From positions 1 to 64,000 of the forward strand of contig NZ_LLWC01000030.1 of the NCBI RefSeq assembly GCF_001561995.1: a DNA stretch of 64,000 nucleotides, given 5' to 3'. This document shows, piece after piece, positions 1,067 to 40,457 of the stretch (position 1 is its first letter; each line of letters begins with the position of its first letter). Under the pieces are notes generated by a model. That model did no database searches. It was not told the DNA's origin and saw only the letters and a list, made by a program, of their open reading frames with translations. The DNA is from Polycladidibacter hongkongensis. Lineage in GTDB: Bacteria > Pseudomonadota > Alphaproteobacteria > Rhizobiales > Stappiaceae. Made by a program: the position numbers and the translations under genes.

Positions 1067-1071
1067 CAAAT
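1067..1071. repeat. Left target-site duplication CAAAT
   Basis: The five bases CAAAT directly precede the phage terminus TGTAGCGCG. The same five bases follow the other terminus at 40308-40312. A 5-bp duplication is the known signature of Mu-type transposition. Confidence 0.85.
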
Positions 1072-1076
1072 TGTAG

Positions 1077-1120
1077 CGCGCAAGTTCGTAATGGAAAATG
1101 CGCAAGTTCGTAATGGAAAA
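1077..1120 (+). repeat. Two tandem candidate transposase-binding sites at the left end (L1, L2)
   Basis: GCGCAAGTTCGTAATGG followed by AAAA occurs twice with a 22-bp period (1078-1098 and 1100-1120). The inverse is found at the right end (40281-40302) and, more diverged, at 40166-40187. Mu-type transposases bind repeated sites near both termini, so these are the expected sites for the transposase encoded at 3922. Confidence 0.75.
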
Positions 1121-1159
1121 CAATGCGTCGCGCATTTCGCGGTATTTGCAGCTGATAAT

Positions 1160-1753
1160 TTAAGCCAGCTCAAATGCGGGTTTAAATTTATCAAGAGCGT
1201 CATTCACATTAATCAATCCAATTATGCAGCGTTGCTGATCAACCATCCATTCTGCATTTGCGTCAAACGGCACGTGTCGTGGCGCTAGGAGTGACTTCAT
1301 AATCAGGGGGTGCATCACGCCGAGAATATACGCACCACCTCGCTCACGAGCGCCTATCAGACTTTTATGGATTAGTAGGTCCAGCGCCCTCCCGCGCTCT
1401 ATAGCAGTCAAGCTTCGTGCCGTGCAAATTCTGCTGGCCTCAATAATCCGGCTGCGGTTTGGAGGTAACTTTGAGGATTTCTTAAGCCATAGATCATAGA
1501 GCATTGTAGGTGACGCGCAGCTGATTAGTCGGCAGCAGGCAATAGCTTCGCCCTCTTTCAACACAACCACATAATCTGCCTCTGGTGTGTCGTATTGATC
1601 AAATTCCCAGCCATTGCAAATACGCACTTGCCCTTTGGATTTTTGATCATAGGCCAGCCTATTAATGAACCCCTCAGACCGAAGTTTATGCTGGGCCGCC
1701 CACGCTTGGCAGCCCGTTGCCGCCAGTCTCCAATTTGTAACAGATACGCGCAT
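1160..1753 (-). CDS. luxI: Phage-borne LuxI-family acyl-homoserine-lactone synthase
   Basis: This 197-residue protein is the usual size for a LuxI enzyme, which joins an acyl chain from acyl-ACP (or acyl-CoA) to S-adenosylmethionine to make an acyl-homoserine lactone. Family-invariant positions are present: R25 and F29, then E50, D52 and D55 in GWEFDQYD, R75 in CCRL, and E105 and R108 in IIEASR. The usual W35 is Y. The ATG at 1753 has a strong AGGGAGG site 4 nt upstream. It lies 59 nt downstream of luxR on the same strand. Its stop is only 88 bp from the phage left terminus, so the gene is inside the prophage. The acyl chain length cannot be read from the sequence. Confidence 0.9.
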   Translation of the reverse strand: MRVSVTNWRLAATGCQAWAAQHKLRSEGFINRLAYDQKSKGQVRICNGWEFDQYDTPEADYVVVLKEGEAIACCRLISCASPTMLYDLWLKKSSKLPPNRSRIIEASRICTARSLTAIERGRALDLLIHKSLIGARERGGAYILGVMHPLIMKSLLAPRHVPFDANAEWMVDQQRCIIGLINVNDALDKFKPAFELA

Positions 1754-1811
1754 ATTCCCTCCCTAATCGCAGGGAATACAGCAAGCAAAAACATCTATTG
1801 GTAGGGTGACA

Positions 1812-2486
1812 TCAGGCGATCCCCAGACGCGTGGCCGCCGCTATAGCTGCAGCGGCATTACCCTTGGATAGCTTGGAGTATATTTTTCTGAGGTGAAAGT
1901 TCACACCATCACGCGTTATCCCAAGAGCATCGGCGATCTCATCGCCGCTTGCGCCCTGTGCCAAGTGGTGCAGAATTCTTTGTTGCTTACGAGTAATTTC
2001 TTGTAAAGGGTGCGCGAATAACTCGCCATCAAACGACGCCAGCGCTTTAGCGTGGAACATGGCCCCCAAACCGATAGCTTGATAGGTCTGCTTGCTATCT
2101 AGTGCACTCGAGGCACCGAACGATAGGCAAAACCTTGCTCCGCCGGGACCGAGGATCGGCATGGCGAAACCATGCCGTAGTCCATGAGCTGCTGCGGCCT
2201 GCAAGACATTTCGCTCATCCTTACAGGTGGCCAGCTCATGCCAACATAGCGGACGCCCAGCAGATAGAGTGTTTCTAACAACCGGGTCATTATCTGCCAG
2301 CCCCTGCGAAAAATACTCATCCACCCACTCAGCTGGGTAATTGAGCAGGACCGCTGGCGTGTGATGGTCAGCGCTAACATGCCCGCTTAGGCAGCCATAC
2401 GCGACGTATTCGATTCCCAAATTCGAGCAGTCAGCAACGAGTAAATCAAAATCCATGCGGTCAAACTCCGTCCAATAACTACACAT
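1812..2486 (-). CDS. luxR: Phage-borne LuxR-family AHL receptor/transcription factor
   Basis: The N-terminal autoinducer-binding domain shows the conserved W, Y, D-P, W and G set of TraR/LuxR proteins (YPAEWVDEYF, NDPVV, CWHE, GLRHG). The C-terminal 60 residues are a LuxR helix-turn-helix (ITRKQQRILHHLAQG, GDEIADALGI, VNFHLRKIYSKL). The protein is expected to bind the lactone made by the adjacent LuxI and control promoters. The start is uncertain: ATG 2486 gives 224 aa, TTG 2501 gives 229 aa and aligns best with TraR length, and ATG 2456 has the best ribosome site but shortens the ligand domain. Its promoter probably lies in the 127-142 nt gap after the repressor gene, which is on the same strand. 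Confidence 0.88.
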   Translation of the reverse strand: MCSYWTEFDRMDFDLLVADCSNLGIEYVAYGCLSGHVSADHHTPAVLLNYPAEWVDEYFSQGLADNDPVVRNTLSAGRPLCWHELATCKDERNVLQAAAAHGLRHGFAMPILGPGGARFCLSFGASSALDSKQTYQAIGLGAMFHAKALASFDGELFAHPLQEITRKQQRILHHLAQGASGDEIADALGITRDGVNFHLRKIYSKLSKGNAAAAIAAATRLGIA

Positions 2487-2628
2487 ATGCTTAGTTATCA
2501 ACAGTTGAATGACTTTTCAATGCTAGTTAAATGGCGGGTAAATTTCCCACAAAATACTAACAGCGTTATCATCAGACTAAGCGCTGCGGTCAGCCGATTG
2601 AATGAAACACTGCCGCGTTCGGTATTTC

Positions 2629-3069
2629 TCAGTCTAACAGGAATGCGATAACATCTGGCAGCGTATTGAGTTTGCTCTTAGCGACATTGCCCTCGGGATC
2701 CGCCTTGCTCAGTGCCAGATGATAGGCACTGGCCAGAACACCACCCACCTGACTGGAGGGGTATTCATTCAAAGATTTCCGCGATTTGAGTTCTCCCAAA
2801 ACAACCTCTACGACCAGTTTAAAAACAGGCTCATTTAGGTGGCCCTGAGCTATCTGCGATGAACTCTCCTCGCCGGTTATCAGCCAGTTCATGTCTGTCC
2901 CGAATTGCTCTGCATATCCAGCCAAGAGATCTGCCGGAGGTTGGCGCTTATCCTGCTCGTAATTTGCAAGGGTCGACTCCGCAACATTGAACAGTAAAGC
3001 GGTTGATCTGCGTGAGCGTGGCTCGCGTGCCAATGCCAGTCTCTGCCCTAGTGATAGGTCGTTTGCCAT
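2629..3069 (-). CDS. Mu c-type phage repressor (HTH, CI-like)
   Basis: The N-terminal XRE-type helix-turn-helix is clear (LGQRLALARE, then STALLFNVAESTLANYEQDK and LAGYAEQFGTDMNWLITGE), followed by a short C-terminal tail without an S24 peptidase domain. Divergent placement against a ner-like gene makes it the lysogeny repressor. The ATG at 3069 is preferred because GGAG lies 6 nt upstream; ATG 3096 and TTG 3105 are longer options. Without an autocleavage domain, induction is probably not by RecA-stimulated self-cleavage (inference). It is transcribed leftward, ahead of luxR and luxI. Confidence 0.8.
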   Translation of the reverse strand: MANDLSLGQRLALAREPRSRRSTALLFNVAESTLANYEQDKRQPPADLLAGYAEQFGTDMNWLITGEESSSQIAQGHLNEPVFKLVVEVVLGELKSRKSLNEYPSSQVGGVLASAYHLALSKADPEGNVAKSKLNTLPDVIAFLLD

Positions 3070-3098
3070 CAGAAGCTCCAATATTGCGCTTGCCATAC

Positions 3099-3112
3099 CA
3101 GTCAAATGACTG
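3099..3112. promoter_or_regulatory. Dyad operator candidate between c and ner
   Basis: CAGTCA-AA-TGACTG is a perfect 6+6 palindrome with a 2-nt spacer, in the short divergent control region between repressor and ner-like gene. This is where c and Ner are expected to bind. No second copy was seen, so it is only a candidate. Confidence 0.45.
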
Positions 3113-3137: not shown

Positions 3138-3497
3138 ATGAGCGCAGTTATGAACAAACCGGCCCGCGATAAATTTGACGTTCAGAGAAAACTTGCATCG
3201 CAAAACCGCACGCTAACGAGCTTGGCCCGTGATGCCGGTTACTCTGAGTCTCTTTGTCGAGGTGCCTTTTGTCGCCCGACACTGCTCGGCGAGGCCCTAA
3301 TTATCGCCGCAACTGGCTATTGTGGCCATGAGATTTGGCCTGACCGCTACGATTGCACAGGAACTAGACACGTTCGACAAGGGAAAGCTACGCAAAACAG
3401 GTGCGTTTCACAATGTCAAACTGCCTCTGATTGTGTAGCTACAAAACTATGTAGCAACCACAAACGTAGTGCATCGCAATGTGGAGATGCCCTATGA
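3138..3497 (+). CDS. ner: Ner-like winged-helix regulator (with extra C-terminal tail)
   Basis: Residues of the Nlp/Ner family are visible (RKLASQNRTLTSLARDAGYS, then HEIWPDRYD). In Mu, Ner switches off the repressor and early promoters when lytic growth starts. It is the first rightward gene, divergent from the repressor. Typical Ner proteins end near WPxRY. Here about 45 cysteine-rich residues follow that do not look like a known domain. Start may be ATG 3138 or ATG 3150; neither has a good ribosome site. The stop TGA overlaps the next start (ATGA). Confidence 0.7.
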   Translation: MSAVMNKPARDKFDVQRKLASQNRTLTSLARDAGYSESLCRGAFCRPTLLGEALIIAATGYCGHEIWPDRYDCTGTRHVRQGKATQNRCVSQCQTASDCVATKLCSNHKRSASQCGDAL

Positions 3498-3925
3498 ATG
3501 AACTAAGCGATACATGGGGTATTGACGACCTCGGAGACAGACGCCCTCCTATTATGGGCACTGAGGTTAGTGCAGTGCTTAAGCAGCAACTTAGCGAGGC
3601 CATGCAAAACAGCCCTCTAAGCCGCGCTGAGATCGCTCACCAAATGTCACTATACTTGGGTGTAAAGATCAGCGAAGCGCTGCTTAACCAGTATGCCGCG
3701 CCTTCTGCTGGCGACAAGCAAATGTCTCTCCCCCGTTTAGCCGCTTTCATTCATGCAACAGACGCAATCAGCCTAATCCGGTTTCTACCATCACTGTTTG
3801 GCTACTCAATCATCAACGAGAAGCAGCGCGCGCTGCTGGAACGTGAGCTGCTTAAAGAGCGATTAAAAGCGCTTGAAAGTGAAATAGCCCGCGCAGACGC
3901 GACCTATCAGGGGAGCGGTCAATGA
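3494..3925 (+). CDS. Small early phage protein, probable DNA-binding regulator
   Basis: The 143-residue product begins MNELSDTWG at an ATGA overlap with the ner-like gene. A central stretch (LSRAEIAHQMSLYLGVKISEALLNQYAAP) resembles a helix-turn-helix, and the C-terminus is a charged helix. Genes of this kind sit between ner and the transposase in many Mu-like phages, but no function can be named. It overlaps the transposase start by 4 nt, so the two are translationally coupled. Confidence 0.6.
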   Translation: MNELSDTWGIDDLGDRRPPIMGTEVSAVLKQQLSEAMQNSPLSRAEIAHQMSLYLGVKISEALLNQYAAPSAGDKQMSLPRLAAFIHATDAISLIRFLPSLFGYSIINEKQRALLERELLKERLKALESEIARADATYQGSGQ

Positions 3926-6150
3926 AGCAGTGGTGGAGCACAAACGAGCTTATTGAGGCGAGATTGCCCGGTCTTGCATCCGCAGCAGCAATTTCCCGCT
4001 GTGCCACTGAAATGAACTGGGCTGCGGCACCGGACAGGTATCGCCGAAGGGCCGGGCGTGGCGGGGCTCGTGAAATCCATCTGAGTTTACTCCCGCAGCT
4101 GGCACAGGATGCGCTGGCAGCGCGTGCAGCGATGGACCGGATTAACAGCGCACCGCTAAATGAAACCAGCGAACAAATATCTTACAAGCAAGATGCAGCC
4201 AACACTTCAGTTGAGCGACGCGATCTGGATGCCAGACTGGCCATATTGTCTGCAATTCAGTCCTACCAAAACGACCGTGCATGCAGTTTCTCCAAGGCTC
4301 TGCGCGTCGTTTCGGATCAATACAACGCAGGCGAAATTAAAATTGCAAACTGGGTGAAGGACACAATCCCCAGCTTCAAAAAATCTGCCGCTTACAATTG
4401 GCGTGCAGCTATGGAAAACGGTGATTTTTCATCCCTTGCCAGCACCAAAAAGCTGTCGCGTGCACAAACAGGCGTTCTGGAGGCGGCGCATAGCGGTGCT
4501 GTCAAACAGTTCATTCTCGGGTTGATCGCCAAACAGCCGCACCTGAGCTGCAAACCGATACGCGCCGCTGTGATTGCCAAGTTTGGCGAGAGCTTCGAGC
4601 TGGTTGCCAGTTCTGGCGAGGTCAAAACCGTTGCCTGCCCGCCGCTGCGCACCTTCCAGCATCATATCAAGGCATGGAAACAGGAGCACGCCAACGAGTT
4701 GCTACGCCTCACCAACCCCGATAAATACAAGGGCAGTGTGCGCATGGTGGCCGCTGGTGGTGCCAGCGCCAATATCCACCGCCTGAACCAGCTATGGGAA
4801 ATTGATGCATCGCCCGCCGATGTTATGACCACCGAGGGGCGCTGGCATATCTACGCCTGCGTTGACGTATTCTCGCGCCGCGCATTGGTACTGGTGACAC
4901 AAACCCCGCGCGCAGACGCTGTGGGTGTGCTCATTCGTGATGCCATTGCAAAATGGGGTGTGCCAGAGGCTGTTAAAACCGATAATGGTAGCGACTTTGT
5001 TGCCAAACAGACAGAGCGGCTGTTCGCCGCCCTTGGCGTTGAGGTGCTGACCTGTGATGCCTACAGCCCCGAGCAAAAACCGCACGTGGAGCGGTTTATC
5101 GGAACATGGCAGCGCGGCTTTGCCGAGTTACTGCCCGGCTATGTGGGGCACAGCGTTGCGGACCGCACTGTCATTGAATCGCGCAAGAGGTTTTCCGATC
5201 GGCTCGGCACATCGGATGCCGAGATATTCGCGGTCGACCTATCCCCGCAAGAGTTACAGGAGGCATCCAACCAATGGGTGGAGACCGTCTACGAGCACAA
5301 TCGTCACGGCGCATTGGGCTGCACGCCATTTACCAAGGCACAGCAATACACCGGCTCCATTAAAACCGTCGATGAAACCGCACTAAACGTGCTGCTTGCG
5401 CCAATTGCCAGCGGCAATGGCATCCGCACAGTGACAAAATCGGGCATCCGCTGCAACAACGAGCACTATCTGATTGGCAACGTGATGGTGGGCGAGCGGG
5501 TGTTCTGCCGCCAAGACCCACGTGATCTGGGCAAGCTGTTTGTGTTTTCAGATGACGGCGAGCAGTTCCTCGGCCATGCCTTTGCACCGGTGCTGGCTGG
5601 GCTGGATCCGGTCAAAACCATCGCGCATGTGCGCAAAATGCAAAAAGCGCTGGAGGAAGAACAGATCACCTCCATGCGTCGCCAGATGCGCAAGATCGGC
5701 CCGCGTGATGTGTTGAACGCGGTGCTGGAACAGGGCCAAAGCAACGTCACAGCCTTCCCAAAACCAAGCGAGACACACAGCACACCGATGCTGTCCGCCG
5801 CTGGCGAGGTGACAAAACTCACCCAGCCGGAACTGCCGGACGGGCTGGATGATGTGATGGCGCAAATAAAAGCCGAGCTGGATAGTGAGACAACGCAGCC
5901 TGCCCAGCCACCAAAGACACCAAGCCAAGCGCAGACAAAGCCAAGCACGGCCACAAACACCCGCCCCATTAAGGCAGAGAGCCAGTTCGACCGTTATCGC
6001 CGCGCACTAGCCTTGGAAAAACGTATTAGCGCAGGTGATCCGCTGAGCGAGGCAGATGCCCGCTGGCTGGCCGGATATCGCGAGGGTGCGGAATACAAAT
6101 CCATGAAAATCATGGCTGACGAGTTCGGGGAGAGTTTTCTGGAGGGCTAG
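3922..6150 (+). CDS. MuA-like DDE transposase
   Basis: The 742-residue protein has an N-terminal Mu-type DNA-binding domain (WWSTNELIEARLPGLA, NWAAAPDRYRRRAGRGG), a central integrase-fold catalytic core and a C-terminal beta-barrel/tail region. The catalytic triad is read as D295 (WEIDASPAD), D354 (KTDNGSDF) and E390 (HVERF). The D-E spacing is 35, as in retroviral integrases, rather than Mu's 55. It should pair the phage ends through the 22-bp sites, join them to target DNA and thereby integrate and replicate the phage. It is the first large early gene and partners with the ATPase at 6207. Confidence 0.92.
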   Translation: MKQWWSTNELIEARLPGLASAAAISRCATEMNWAAAPDRYRRRAGRGGAREIHLSLLPQLAQDALAARAAMDRINSAPLNETSEQISYKQDAANTSVERRDLDARLAILSAIQSYQNDRACSFSKALRVVSDQYNAGEIKIANWVKDTIPSFKKSAAYNWRAAMENGDFSSLASTKKLSRAQTGVLEAAHSGAVKQFILGLIAKQPHLSCKPIRAAVIAKFGESFELVASSGEVKTVACPPLRTFQHHIKAWKQEHANELLRLTNPDKYKGSVRMVAAGGASANIHRLNQLWEIDASPADVMTTEGRWHIYACVDVFSRRALVLVTQTPRADAVGVLIRDAIAKWGVPEAVKTDNGSDFVAKQTERLFAALGVEVLTCDAYSPEQKPHVERFIGTWQRGFAELLPGYVGHSVADRTVIESRKRFSDRLGTSDAEIFAVDLSPQELQEASNQWVETVYEHNRHGALGCTPFTKAQQYTGSIKTVDETALNVLLAPIASGNGIRTVTKSGIRCNNEHYLIGNVMVGERVFCRQDPRDLGKLFVFSDDGEQFLGHAFAPVLAGLDPVKTIAHVRKMQKALEEEQITSMRRQMRKIGPRDVLNAVLEQGQSNVTAFPKPSETHSTPMLSAAGEVTKLTQPELPDGLDDVMAQIKAELDSETTQPAQPPKTPSQAQTKPSTATNTRPIKAESQFDRYRRALALEKRISAGDPLSEADARWLAGYREGAEYKSMKIMADEFGESFLEG

Positions 6151-6206: not shown

Positions 6207-6956
6207 ATGACAGGTAACCGGAATGTTGTCAATGGCGGCTTTGCACCGCTTAAAAATGTCGCTCTAGCCATGCAACTGGCGAATAAGCTGATTGACCGTG
6301 ATTTTAGCTTACCCGGCTTTGGTGTCTTTTATGGCCCATCGGGGTTTGGCAAAACCCAGTCGAGCATTTTCGTCCAGAACAAAACCGGTGCCACACGCAT
6401 CGAAATTGCTGATAGCTGGACGAAAAAGAAAATGGTCTCGGCAATCCTGATGGAGCTGGGCGTACAAAAACCGCGCGGCACCATTGCCGATCTCACCGAA
6501 CAGGCCATTCACCTGCTTTCAGACAACCCGCACCAGCCGCTGATCATTGATGAAGCGGATAAGCTGATTGAGAAAAAACTGGTGGAGCTGGTGCGCGAGA
6601 TCCAAGAGCACAGCCAAGCGCCTGTGTTGCTGCTGGGCGAAGAGCTGTTGCCGCAAAAACTGGAACAATACGAGCGGGCACATAATCGTGTTCTGGATTT
6701 TGTCGGCGCACTGCCTTGTGATCTGGATGACACGATGGCTTTGGCGCGATGCTACGCGCCAAAACTACAGATCATGGAGGATCTGGCGCAGCGCATTTGC
6801 GATGAAACCCATGGCAGGGCAAGGCGCATTGCCACCACGCTGGTGGCGGTACGTGAATTTGCCACCAATGCCGGATTGGAGCGCATAGATAGCACTGACT
6901 ACACCGGCAAAATCATTTCCGGCGCGTCTCCGGCAACTCGGAGGCTGGGCAAATGA
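6207..6956 (+). CDS. MuB-like AAA+ ATPase, transposition target selector
   Basis: The protein has a Walker A motif GPSGFGKT at residues 43-50 and Walker B LIIDEAD near 112-118, followed by AAA+ sensor-like helices. Position directly after MuA identifies it as the MuB counterpart, which coats target DNA, stimulates the transposase and provides target immunity. At 249 aa it is shorter than Mu B. The stop overlaps the next start (ATGA). Confidence 0.88.
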   Translation: MTGNRNVVNGGFAPLKNVALAMQLANKLIDRDFSLPGFGVFYGPSGFGKTQSSIFVQNKTGATRIEIADSWTKKKMVSAILMELGVQKPRGTIADLTEQAIHLLSDNPHQPLIIDEADKLIEKKLVELVREIQEHSQAPVLLLGEELLPQKLEQYERAHNRVLDFVGALPCDLDDTMALARCYAPKLQIMEDLAQRICDETHGRARRIATTLVAVREFATNAGLERIDSTDYTGKIISGASPATRRLGK

Positions 6957-10486: not shown

Positions 10487-10534
10487 TTGCTCTTACTGGC
10501 AGTGTTTCAGCATCAATTGTTTGGAGTTGCTCCT

Positions 10535-11170
10535 ATGAACATACTGTCCGCCAGATCTTGTCGTAAAATTGAAGATATTCACCCCGATTTACTGCAGGTC
10601 GTATTGCTGGCCTGCGAACTAACAGAGCAGCCATTTCAGGTCAGCGAAGGGCTGCGCACGCTTGATCGGCAAAAAAAACTTTTGAAACGCGGGGCCACCC
10701 GAACCTTGAACTCGCGGCATTTGACCGGCCATGCGGTTGATCTCTATGCAACCGAAGAGGACGGCACCGGCGCATTGTGGCAATTCGCGCTTTACTGCGA
10801 CATAGCCGATGCCATGTTTGCTGCGGCCGACCAGCTGGATGTTGACCTAAAGTGGGGCGGCAATTGGCCAAAATTCCGCGATGGCCCGCATTTCTATCTG
10901 AGCCGCCAGCGTTATCCTGCAAAGAAAGAGGCACCCGCCCATGCGGGCGAGGTTCTCTCCCTATTCGCTGGATGCAGCGGGGATGTGGTTCACGTTCTGC
11001 AACAGAGTTTGCGGTCGCTTGGATTTGGCAACATCGAACCAGACGGCGATTTCGGCCCCCGCACGCGGTCCGCTGTCAAGACGTTCCAGCAGCAGCATGG
11101 TCTGATCGCCGACGGCATCGTTGGTCCGCAAACACGCAAGGCGTTGCAACAGGCCTTGCAACAAAAATAG
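10535..11170 (+). CDS. Endolysin: M15-type peptidase with C-terminal peptidoglycan-binding domain
   Basis: Residues 1-130 form an M15 metallopeptidase with the zinc-site motifs SRHLTGHAVDL and GPHF; such enzymes cleave peptide bonds of peptidoglycan. Residues about 145-208 form a PG_binding_1 domain (VLQQSLRSLGF, DGDFGPRTRSAVKTFQ, GIVGPQTRKAL). The start ATG 10535 has GGAG 8 nt upstream. It is the first gene after the early terminator and opens the lysis cassette. No signal peptide is seen, so release would need a holin. Confidence 0.85.
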   Translation: MNILSARSCRKIEDIHPDLLQVVLLACELTEQPFQVSEGLRTLDRQKKLLKRGATRTLNSRHLTGHAVDLYATEEDGTGALWQFALYCDIADAMFAAADQLDVDLKWGGNWPKFRDGPHFYLSRQRYPAKKEAPAHAGEVLSLFAGCSGDVVHVLQQSLRSLGFGNIEPDGDFGPRTRSAVKTFQQQHGLIADGIVGPQTRKALQQALQQK

Positions 11171-38732: not shown

Positions 38733-38903
38733 ATGGAGTCTATCCGCTGCAGCAACTGTAATAAATTACTGTTCAAAGTAGAATTTATGGCCATGCATGG
38801 CCGAATAGAAATAAAGTGTGGCCGTTGTGGCTTATACAATGATGTGAGATCCGCCGAGATCCAATCCAAGGCAAACCGCGATGCAACCAACGAACCCGGT
38901 TAA
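38733..38903 (+). CDS. com: Com-like zinc-finger translational activator
   Basis: The start MESIRCSNCNKLLFK is very close to Mu Com and has the paired cysteines CxxC...CxxC (SIRCSNCNK; IKCGRCG). In Mu, Com binds the mom mRNA and opens its ribosome site. Here the gene downstream, overlapping by 23 nt, is a Dam-type methylase instead of mom. An upstream in-frame ATG at 38700 is possible, but homology favours 38733. P2-like tails are followed by the zinc-finger activator ogr at this place. Confidence 0.82.
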   Translation: MESIRCSNCNKLLFKVEFMAMHGRIEIKCGRCGLYNDVRSAEIQSKANRDATNEPG

Positions 38904-39675
38904 ACCTGTTGCGCCGTACATTGGCGGAAAGTTTCAGCTGTCAAAGCTAATTGTAAAACGGATCAAGAACATCCCGCATGACTACTATGTTGAGCCATTT
39001 GTGGGTATGGGCGGCGTGTTCTTGCGCCGCGATCATCAAGTGAGATGCGAGGTGATAAACGATATCAGCCGCGACGTCTCGGGTTTGTTTCGCATTCTGC
39101 AGCGGCATTACCCGCAATTTCTGGATGTGCTCAAGTACCAACTCACAAGCCGATCGGAATTTGAACGTTTATCAAAAACCGATCCTGAAACCCTGACTGA
39201 TCTGGAACGAGCCGCGCGGTTTCTGTATCTCCAGCGCACTAGTTTTGGCGGTAAAGTAGATGGCCGGACTTTTGGCGTATCCATGCGATCGGCGCGGTTT
39301 GATTTAACAAAAGTGGTGCCATTGCTGGAGGACGTCCACGAACGCCTGTCAGGTGTCACTATTGAATGTTTGCCATACGCGGAGTGCATCAAGCGCTATG
39401 ATCGACCTGAAACCTTATTCTATCTCGACCCGCCATACTGGGATACCGAGGACTACTATGGAAAAGGGGTTTTTTCCAAGGCAGATTTTACAGCGCTTGC
39501 CGAGCTTTTAAAGGGCATTAAAGGCCGGTTCATAATGTCTATAAATGACACCCCACAGATACGGGAGATCTTTTGCGACTTCGCGCAAGAACAGGTCAGC
39601 CTGACCTACTCGGCAAGCGCTCATAAAGCTAAAAAAGCCAATGAACTACTCATTACAAACGCGGCGTGCAAGTGA
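38881..39675 (+). CDS. Dam-type DNA adenine N6-methyltransferase (D12 class)
   Basis: The order of motifs is that of D12-class enzymes: APYIGGKFQLSKLI (AdoMet-binding), VEPFVGMGGVFLRR, and the catalytic FYLDPPYWDTEDYY. It should transfer a methyl group from S-adenosylmethionine to adenine N6, probably in a short palindrome; the site cannot be read from sequence. Methylation of phage DNA would protect against restriction or mark regulatory sites. Translation is probably linked to com through the overlap. Confidence 0.88.
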   Translation: MQPTNPVKPVAPYIGGKFQLSKLIVKRIKNIPHDYYVEPFVGMGGVFLRRDHQVRCEVINDISRDVSGLFRILQRHYPQFLDVLKYQLTSRSEFERLSKTDPETLTDLERAARFLYLQRTSFGGKVDGRTFGVSMRSARFDLTKVVPLLEDVHERLSGVTIECLPYAECIKRYDRPETLFYLDPPYWDTEDYYGKGVFSKADFTALAELLKGIKGRFIMSINDTPQIREIFCDFAQEQVSLTYSASAHKAKKANELLITNAACK

Positions 39676-40280: not shown

Positions 40281-40307
40281 GATTCCACTACGAACTTGCG
40301 CGTTACA
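40281..40307 (-). repeat. Right terminal inverted repeat with transposase site R1
   Basis: CCACTACGAACTTGCGCG followed by TTACA is the inverse of the left terminus with two differences. The element ends in CA, directly followed by CAAAT. Confidence 0.85.
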
Positions 40308-40312
40308 CAAAT
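40308..40312. repeat. Right target-site duplication CAAAT
   Basis: It is identical to 1067-1071. Removing one copy plus the phage gives the predicted empty site ...GCGAACAAATTCTGTAAAACC... Confidence 0.85.
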
Positions 40313-40380
40313 TCTGTAAAACCAACTGTAAAACAGCGGTATTTTTAATGAAAAGTCAATTGCTAAGTTATTGAAAAGAA

Positions 40381-40457
40381 TGGCGATCCCTGTAGGATTC
40401 GAACCTACGACCGTCGGCTTAGAAGGCCGGTGCTCTATCCAGCTGAGCTAAGGGACC
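40381..40457 (-). tRNA. tRNA-Arg (anticodon UCU)
   Basis: The minus strand begins GGTCCCTTAGCTCAGCTGG and ends with encoded CCA. The anticodon loop CTTCTAA gives UCU (reads AGA), and the T-arm GTAGGTTCGAATCCTAC is standard. The 7-bp acceptor stem has one G-U pair. The prophage end is 69 nt from its 3' side, but this is not a tRNA attachment site. Confidence 0.95.

Follow-up and report, generated by a model that had tools for sequence, protein, structure and literature searches.

What a luxR-luxI pair is doing beside the repressor gene at the left end of a Mu-like prophage is the question raised by this locus. The window, the whole 64,000-nucleotide stretch that was analyzed, represents contig C2 of a 3.74-Mb genome of a marine Pseudovibrio bacterium, assembled in 38 contigs. 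Both lux genes had been placed within the element in an earlier note on this DNA, and the phage termini and CAAAT target duplication do enclose luxI and luxR (Table 1). The left end, TGTAGCGCGCAAG, begins at position 1072 directly after CAAAT, and the right end, ...GCGCGTTACA, finishes at 40307 with CAAAT next. The terminal motif has four matches in the window compared to 0.01 expected. luxI ends 88 bp from the left terminus, exactly as noted earlier. Read from the left end, luxI, luxR and xre are on the minus strand, followed by hth, the early regulator gene, and the MuA and MuB genes on the plus strand.

Table 1. Positions in the window of the prophage ends, principal genes, lux-box-like dyads and adjacent tRNA gene.
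Feature	Position	Strand	Evidence
CAAAT target duplication, left copy	1067-1071	.	sequence
Left terminus	1072-1120	+	repeat GCGCAAGTTCGTAATGGAAAA at 1078 and 1100
luxI, putative AHL synthase, 197 aa	1160-1753	-	PF00765; phrog_31881
luxR, putative AHL receptor	1812-2501 (longest ORF, TTG 2501; likely start ATG 2456)	-	PF03472, PF00196; alignment to two phage relatives
First lux-box-like dyad AACTACACATATGCTTAGTT, just before luxR	2477-2496	.	aligned in three phages
xre, short CI-type HTH repressor, no peptidase match	2629-3105 (likely start ATG 3069)	-	PF12844, PF07022; phrog_4, phrog_2328 repressors
hth, divergent early regulator, HTH_35 type	3138-3497	+	PF13693, 45 bits; phrog_769
Second dyad GCTACAAAACTATGTAGC, leader of early operon	3438-3455	.	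matching place in three phages; weak alone in window
Early transcriptional regulator	3479-3925	+	phrog_2345, 87.5 bits
MuA-like transposase	3922-6150	+	rve, Mu-transpos_C; phrog_310
MuB-like transposition ATPase	6207-6956	+	AAA_22, TniB; phrog_296
Endolysin	10487-11170	+	phrog_465
Packaging, head and contractile-tail genes (terminase, portal, protease, major head, sheath, tape measure, baseplate)	12675-38607	+	PHROGs
DNA methyltransferase	38881-39675	+	phrog_56
Right terminus	40281-40307	-	inverted copy of end motif
CAAAT target duplication, right copy	40308-40312	.	sequence
Host tRNA-Arg(tct)	40381-40457	-	3' end 73 bp from right terminus

The element has the hallmarks of a Mu-like phage, namely TGT...ACA termini with a 5-bp target duplication and a MuA-type DDE transposase accompanied by a MuB-type ATPase. 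When 30 further prophage proteins were compared with the PHROGs collection, 26 matched a family and four did not; the matches included both terminase subunits, portal, protease, major head, sheath, tape measure, baseplate parts, endolysin and methyltransferase. With terminase, head, tail and lysis genes thus represented between well-defined termini and a target duplication, the prophage (1072-40307, 39,236 bp) looks complete. The IMG/VR record of the same prophage, in which the transposase is 100% identical, begins at approximately window position 3494 and therefore lacks the whole quorum-sensing block. An ORF for an IS240/IS6-type transposase is located at 182-877, near the contig start and 194 bp to the left of the prophage.

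The LuxI protein scored 58.4 bits against the Pfam Autoind_synth profile, for which the cut-off is 24, and thus possesses the synthase domain. About ten positions were taken by us as invariant in LuxI proteins, and two of them are altered by aromatic-for-aromatic changes (W to Y35 and F to W89), the rest being kept. All but one of the invariant residues had been said to be intact, which needs correction to all but two on this list; Y35 and W89 are common to the LuxI proteins of all three phages considered below. The window LuxI is predicted to synthesize an AHL; the two changed positions count against the switch function proposed below. The LuxR protein combines a ligand-binding domain (Autoind_bind, 88.6 bits) and a GerE helix-turn-helix (39 bits) with the six residues which we take to be the ligand-pocket set, W59, Y63, D72, P73, W87 and G111. 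All six are present, as the earlier note had proposed, and are invariant in the three phage LuxRs. The gap between luxR and xre, put previously at about 140 bp, is close to that figure when measured from the longest luxR ORF (127 bp), but extends to 172 bp from the likely start at ATG 2456. The luxI, luxR and xre frames of the window are all open. In comparisons of the window with Pseudovibrio stylochi, dN and dS were 0.235 and 1.33 for luxI, 0.216 and 2.13 for xre, and 0.068 and 0.478 for MuA, and dS was saturated for luxR. Both luxI and xre are under purifying selection. A further luxI comparison, between the P. stylochi C43 copy and the C13 stub, was discarded because an internal stop spoiled the codon alignment.

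A search for other Mu-like prophages with luxI in the same slot, the check proposed at the outset, recovered two related phages. Their carriers, P. stylochi UST20140214-052 and uncultured Pseudovibrio X9, are the closest found and both are assigned to the genus of the window host. Each phage has the xre-luxR-luxI block and divergent hth in the same slot, early gene order is the same in all three, and MuA identity to the window protein is 89-90% in P. stylochi and 64% in X9. Among 61 genomes (the window host's own and 60 relatives), ten gave any LuxI match at E 1e-3, and long, good matches were confined to P. stylochi (65% and 64%), X9 (36%, nearly full length) and the own genome. Identity between the window and P. 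stylochi prophages is 65-74% for the four cassette proteins and at least 85% for 22 of the 29 others that could be matched; two further window genes that were queried had no match in the P. stylochi prophage. The remaining seven matched proteins, among them a regulator at 6953, the endolysin and the tape measure, are at 55-80% identity, so that the cassette is just one variable region among several, and its standing as a unique hot spot for swapping is weakened. Occurrence of luxR-luxI at the same chromosomal place in relatives without the prophage had been suggested as an argument against phage ownership. The P. stylochi luxI adjoins the same tRNA-Arg gene as the window prophage, but this is not such a case because it sits in a full prophage in the opposite orientation and with a GCTGT duplication.

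More distant relatives reveal what else occupies the slot. MuA was detected at E 1e-60 in eight of the 384 further genomes sampled from the class, and no LuxI was found by tblastn beside these eight loci, two of which (L070 and L075) show only ~1.1 kb before MuA. ORFs in the repressor position were tested at six of the loci: four have an S24 peptidase and two (L075 and L077) a short HTH. The slot in phage RS1 also holds a CI-type repressor with an S24 peptidase. Within this group of phages the slot is thus often occupied by a repressor of self-cleaving type, which the quorum-sensing block replaces in the Pseudovibrio phages. Among the best 80 of 211 MuA relatives in IMG/VR, luxI was found in two, P. 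stylochi and L122, a count that is a lower bound as many IMG/VR records, including that of the window prophage, end short on that side. L122 (IMGVR_UViG_3300049822_000359) is a metagenomic Mu-like contig whose transposase is 44% identical, and luxI and luxR, each confirmed with Pfam, are on its left side (41-1589). They are set past an additional gene and a distinct repressor-like ORF, an arrangement that constitutes a second layout of phage luxRI. Degraded copies also exist. A stub on contig C7 of the own genome (L003 6012-7024) has a remnant left end, an open luxI that is 94% identical to the window copy but three residues short, and a luxR reduced to its C-terminal part. In the P. stylochi C13 stub (L020 8647-9459) luxI is broken by a stop and only the C-terminal part of luxR is present.

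The two luxI genes of the own genome, the window and C7 copies, are both phage-derived and no luxI was found outside them in that genome; the phage would therefore be the cell's sole source of AHL. The LuxI domain occurs in five of 16 genomes of the genus, comprising the three that carry the phage plus G006 and G012, for whose LuxI proteins no relation to the phage group was found. At least one protein with an AHL-binding domain is encoded in each of the 16. The own genome has one further gene of AHL-binding LuxR type, an orphan at G000 C36:68226-68651, and genes similar to it occur in the other 15; its product is a candidate host receptor for the phage signal. AHL-type LuxR proteins with no luxI have been described for Pseudovibrio strains FO-BEG1 and JE062 in the account of these genomes by Bondarev et al. 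(2013, PMC3806328). A host origin of luxRI was not supported in the class and genus genome samples. In the class sample of 385 genomes, eight besides the own genome matched the LuxI profile at E 1e-12, and at the ten loci involved luxR lies beside luxI with no match to the XRE model and no MuA.

The earlier note left the novelty of a phage luxR-luxI pair unverified, and precedents exist. A phage listed as Myoviridae sp., in which LuxR and LuxI genes adjoin, was pointed out in 2019, and the account given there proposes an arbitrium-like use for a receptor and synthase that lie side by side as in the window phage (Silpe and Bassler, PMC6456758). More closely, a Mu-family prophage of Phaeobacter inhibens is described as promoting its own lysogeny by a four-gene module, as determined by experiment: XRE and AHL-LuxR turn on a lysogeny promoter, and blocking the signal leads to lysis (Bunsick et al., preprint July 2026, PMC13345283). 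The gene order that marks the module, with xre, luxR and luxI in one direction and hth divergent within a prophage, is the order in the window. As far as gene order and domains show, the likeness to Phage A of strain T5 in the preprint's description extends to its Mu family membership and to xre-luxR-luxI with divergent hth replacing the usual repressor (PMC13345283). The Phage A host, in contrast, belongs to the Roseobacter clade and has pgaI/pgaR of its own and a signal that opposes the phage, and no recognizable Ner is reported in that description, whereas the luxI genes of the window host are both phage-derived and the window hth matches HTH_35 and phrog_769. Phage B of the same strain, as portrayed there, shares the four-gene order and its AHL favors lysogeny, but it is not Mu-like and has attachment sites (PMC13345283). 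Rhodovulum phage RS1 and Rhodobacter phage RC1 have a related transposase (37% identity) and a similar gene order, and the left end of RS1 resembles that of the window prophage, but these phages carry a CI-like repressor with S24 peptidase where the window phage has the quorum-sensing block. Arbitrium in Bacillus phages of the SPbeta group follows similar logic, in that the signal is made by lysogens and high levels favor lysogeny. It is a peptide system with AimR/AimX, and we know of no reason to expect a sequence relation to the window module.

The preprint confines the module to the Roseobacter clade, and its screen was of complete genomes with at least two luxI genes (PMC13345283). The name Pseudovibrio is absent from its main text, and no report of an xre-luxR-luxI module in Pseudovibrio was found in literature searches. 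Pseudovibrio belongs to the Hyphomicrobiales (Stappiaceae) and Phaeobacter to the Rhodobacterales (Roseobacteraceae). The Phaeobacter phage was not recovered by LuxI, LuxR, XRE and MuA scans of IMG/VR or by one scan of named genome contigs. Neither was it among Rhodobacterales genomes with MuA matches (two of 390) or XRE matches (30 of 292), and no luxI or luxR was alongside at the 20 XRE loci inspected. Overall, the module was known before in kind and the Pseudovibrio phages add members from outside the Roseobacter clade.

In each of the three phages, dyads of lux-box form, which we take to be CT-N12-AG, precede both luxR and the transposase operon, at matching places. In the window and P. 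stylochi prophages, the second dyad reads CTACA-N6-TGTAG at an aligned place. Scored alone it reached 8.6 bits in the window, which is within the control range, and 9.1 bits in P. stylochi, and a pattern made from the window copy gave at least one match in 18 of 100 shuffles. The dyad model was built from the three pre-luxR sites, and those sites therefore score high by construction. The second dyad copy in the X9 early-operon leader, which is outside the model, scored 22.9 bits compared to a best score of 15.0 in 20 random 64-kb sequences. LuxR is predicted from these patterns to bind the dyads, and we infer that at the second it would hold the transposase operon down. The first dyad is centered ~30 bp before the likely luxR start. 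The site of a class II LuxR activator is usually placed elsewhere relative to the gene start, so the first dyad may serve in repression or be bound by XRE. XRE may also bind at the second dyad.

The block is probably the lysis-lysogeny switch of the prophage, with AHL-LuxR and XRE jointly holding lysogeny. In a lysogen the xre-luxR-luxI genes would be on, LuxI would make AHL, and LuxR would bind it. AHL-LuxR together with XRE would then keep the divergent early lytic genes (hth, the regulator gene, MuA and MuB) off. Because only lysogens would make the signal, high AHL would report that the neighboring cells are lysogens already, and the prophage would stay dormant; when the signal is scarce, the early operon could open. 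The direction of control, toward lysogeny, is proposed for the window phage by analogy with the P. inhibens experiments as the preprint relates them (PMC13345283).

Other functions were weighed against the gene content and its conservation. The end of a Mu-like genome, downstream of the repressor, is a usual place for passenger genes. As luxR-luxI sits there, it might be cargo that is transcribed with the repressor in the lysogen and that serves the bacterium or an animal host with no role in the switch, and its position in L122 past another gene and a distinct repressor-like ORF would suit a passenger. Conservation of order and slot in three phages, the matching dyads in the early lytic leader, and the switch function ascribed to a similar module in the preprint on P. 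inhibens (PMC13345283) all make this explanation unlikely. The broken cassettes of related stubs, with only a C-terminal luxR part in C7 and a stop in luxI in P. stylochi C13, raise the further idea that the cassette is decaying or silent in the window prophage, which is very improbable as the window frames are all open and dN is below dS in the compared genes.

In phage VP882 a high level of host signal turns the lytic operon on. High AHL might similarly cause LuxR to turn on the lytic operon of the window phage, and the dyad before the transposase operon is a possible place for an activator too. However, the phage makes its signal from the lysogeny strand, so that the signal would report lysogens, and the module of P. 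inhibens as depicted in the preprint acts toward lysogeny (PMC13345283); sensing that promotes lysis is consequently improbable. Under the favored interpretation of a switch that holds lysogeny, a more elaborate version can be put forward tentatively: the prophage may bring the sole AHL synthase of the cell and thereby keep a private count of lysogens, with LuxR at two operators (its own gene and the transposase leader) and the signal shutting down transposition directly. The signal may also switch on the orphan host LuxR, changing host behavior only in lysogens.

The location of these phages in host genomes follows a pattern of its own. Six of seven insertions or stubs are 73-126 bp downstream of the 3' end of a tRNA gene: own C2, 73 bp (Arg); own C7, 94 bp (Met); P. 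stylochi C43, 84 bp (Arg), C19, 95 bp (Met) and C10, 73 bp (Pro; counted from a ~25-bp match only); and X9, 126 bp (Lys). The corresponding tRNA-side intervals are window 40307-40457, L200 11021-11192, L019 4375-4536, L241 3689-3861, L242 9419-9569 and L021 395-597. The own C2 and P. stylochi C43 insertions are separate events as they have opposite orientations and different duplications at the same tRNA-Arg gene. In P. stylochi C13 no tRNA was found in the 8.6 kb on the visible side. With 58 tRNA genes in 3.74 Mb, and with a 130-bp limit chosen after the data were seen, six in seven would arise by chance with a probability of about 5e-16, or of 1.5e-10 if insertion were open only to an intergenic part assumed to be 12%; omission of C10 (five in six) gives 2e-13 or 8e-9, respectively. 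In the virion record of RS1 (L071 1-293), the terminus is preceded by 293 bp of non-phage DNA that is probably from the host; what was read by eye as the 3' end of a tRNA is at 179, and the phage end is at 294. A universal tRNA rule was rejected: the virion end of RC1, which is near-identical to RS1, is in other DNA, and P. stylochi C13 lacks a tRNA on its visible side. In a distant relative (G181) the phage end is 23 bp from tRNA-Gln. In E. coli, Mu is described as avoiding mature tRNA sequences but inserting in their 5' leaders and 3' trailers (PMC7350765). The open-licence literature searched yielded no description of a Mu-like phage with a preference for sites downstream of tRNA genes.

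The three Pseudovibrio phages extend the range of the module beyond the Roseobacter clade and into a genus whose members detect AHLs but for the most part do not produce them. As both luxI genes of the own genome are phage-derived, signaling by lysogens could be studied here with no opposing host AHL, which makes for a simpler experimental system than that of P. inhibens. Should the orphan host LuxR respond to the AHL of the phage, a listening cell would become a signaling one by carrying the prophage.
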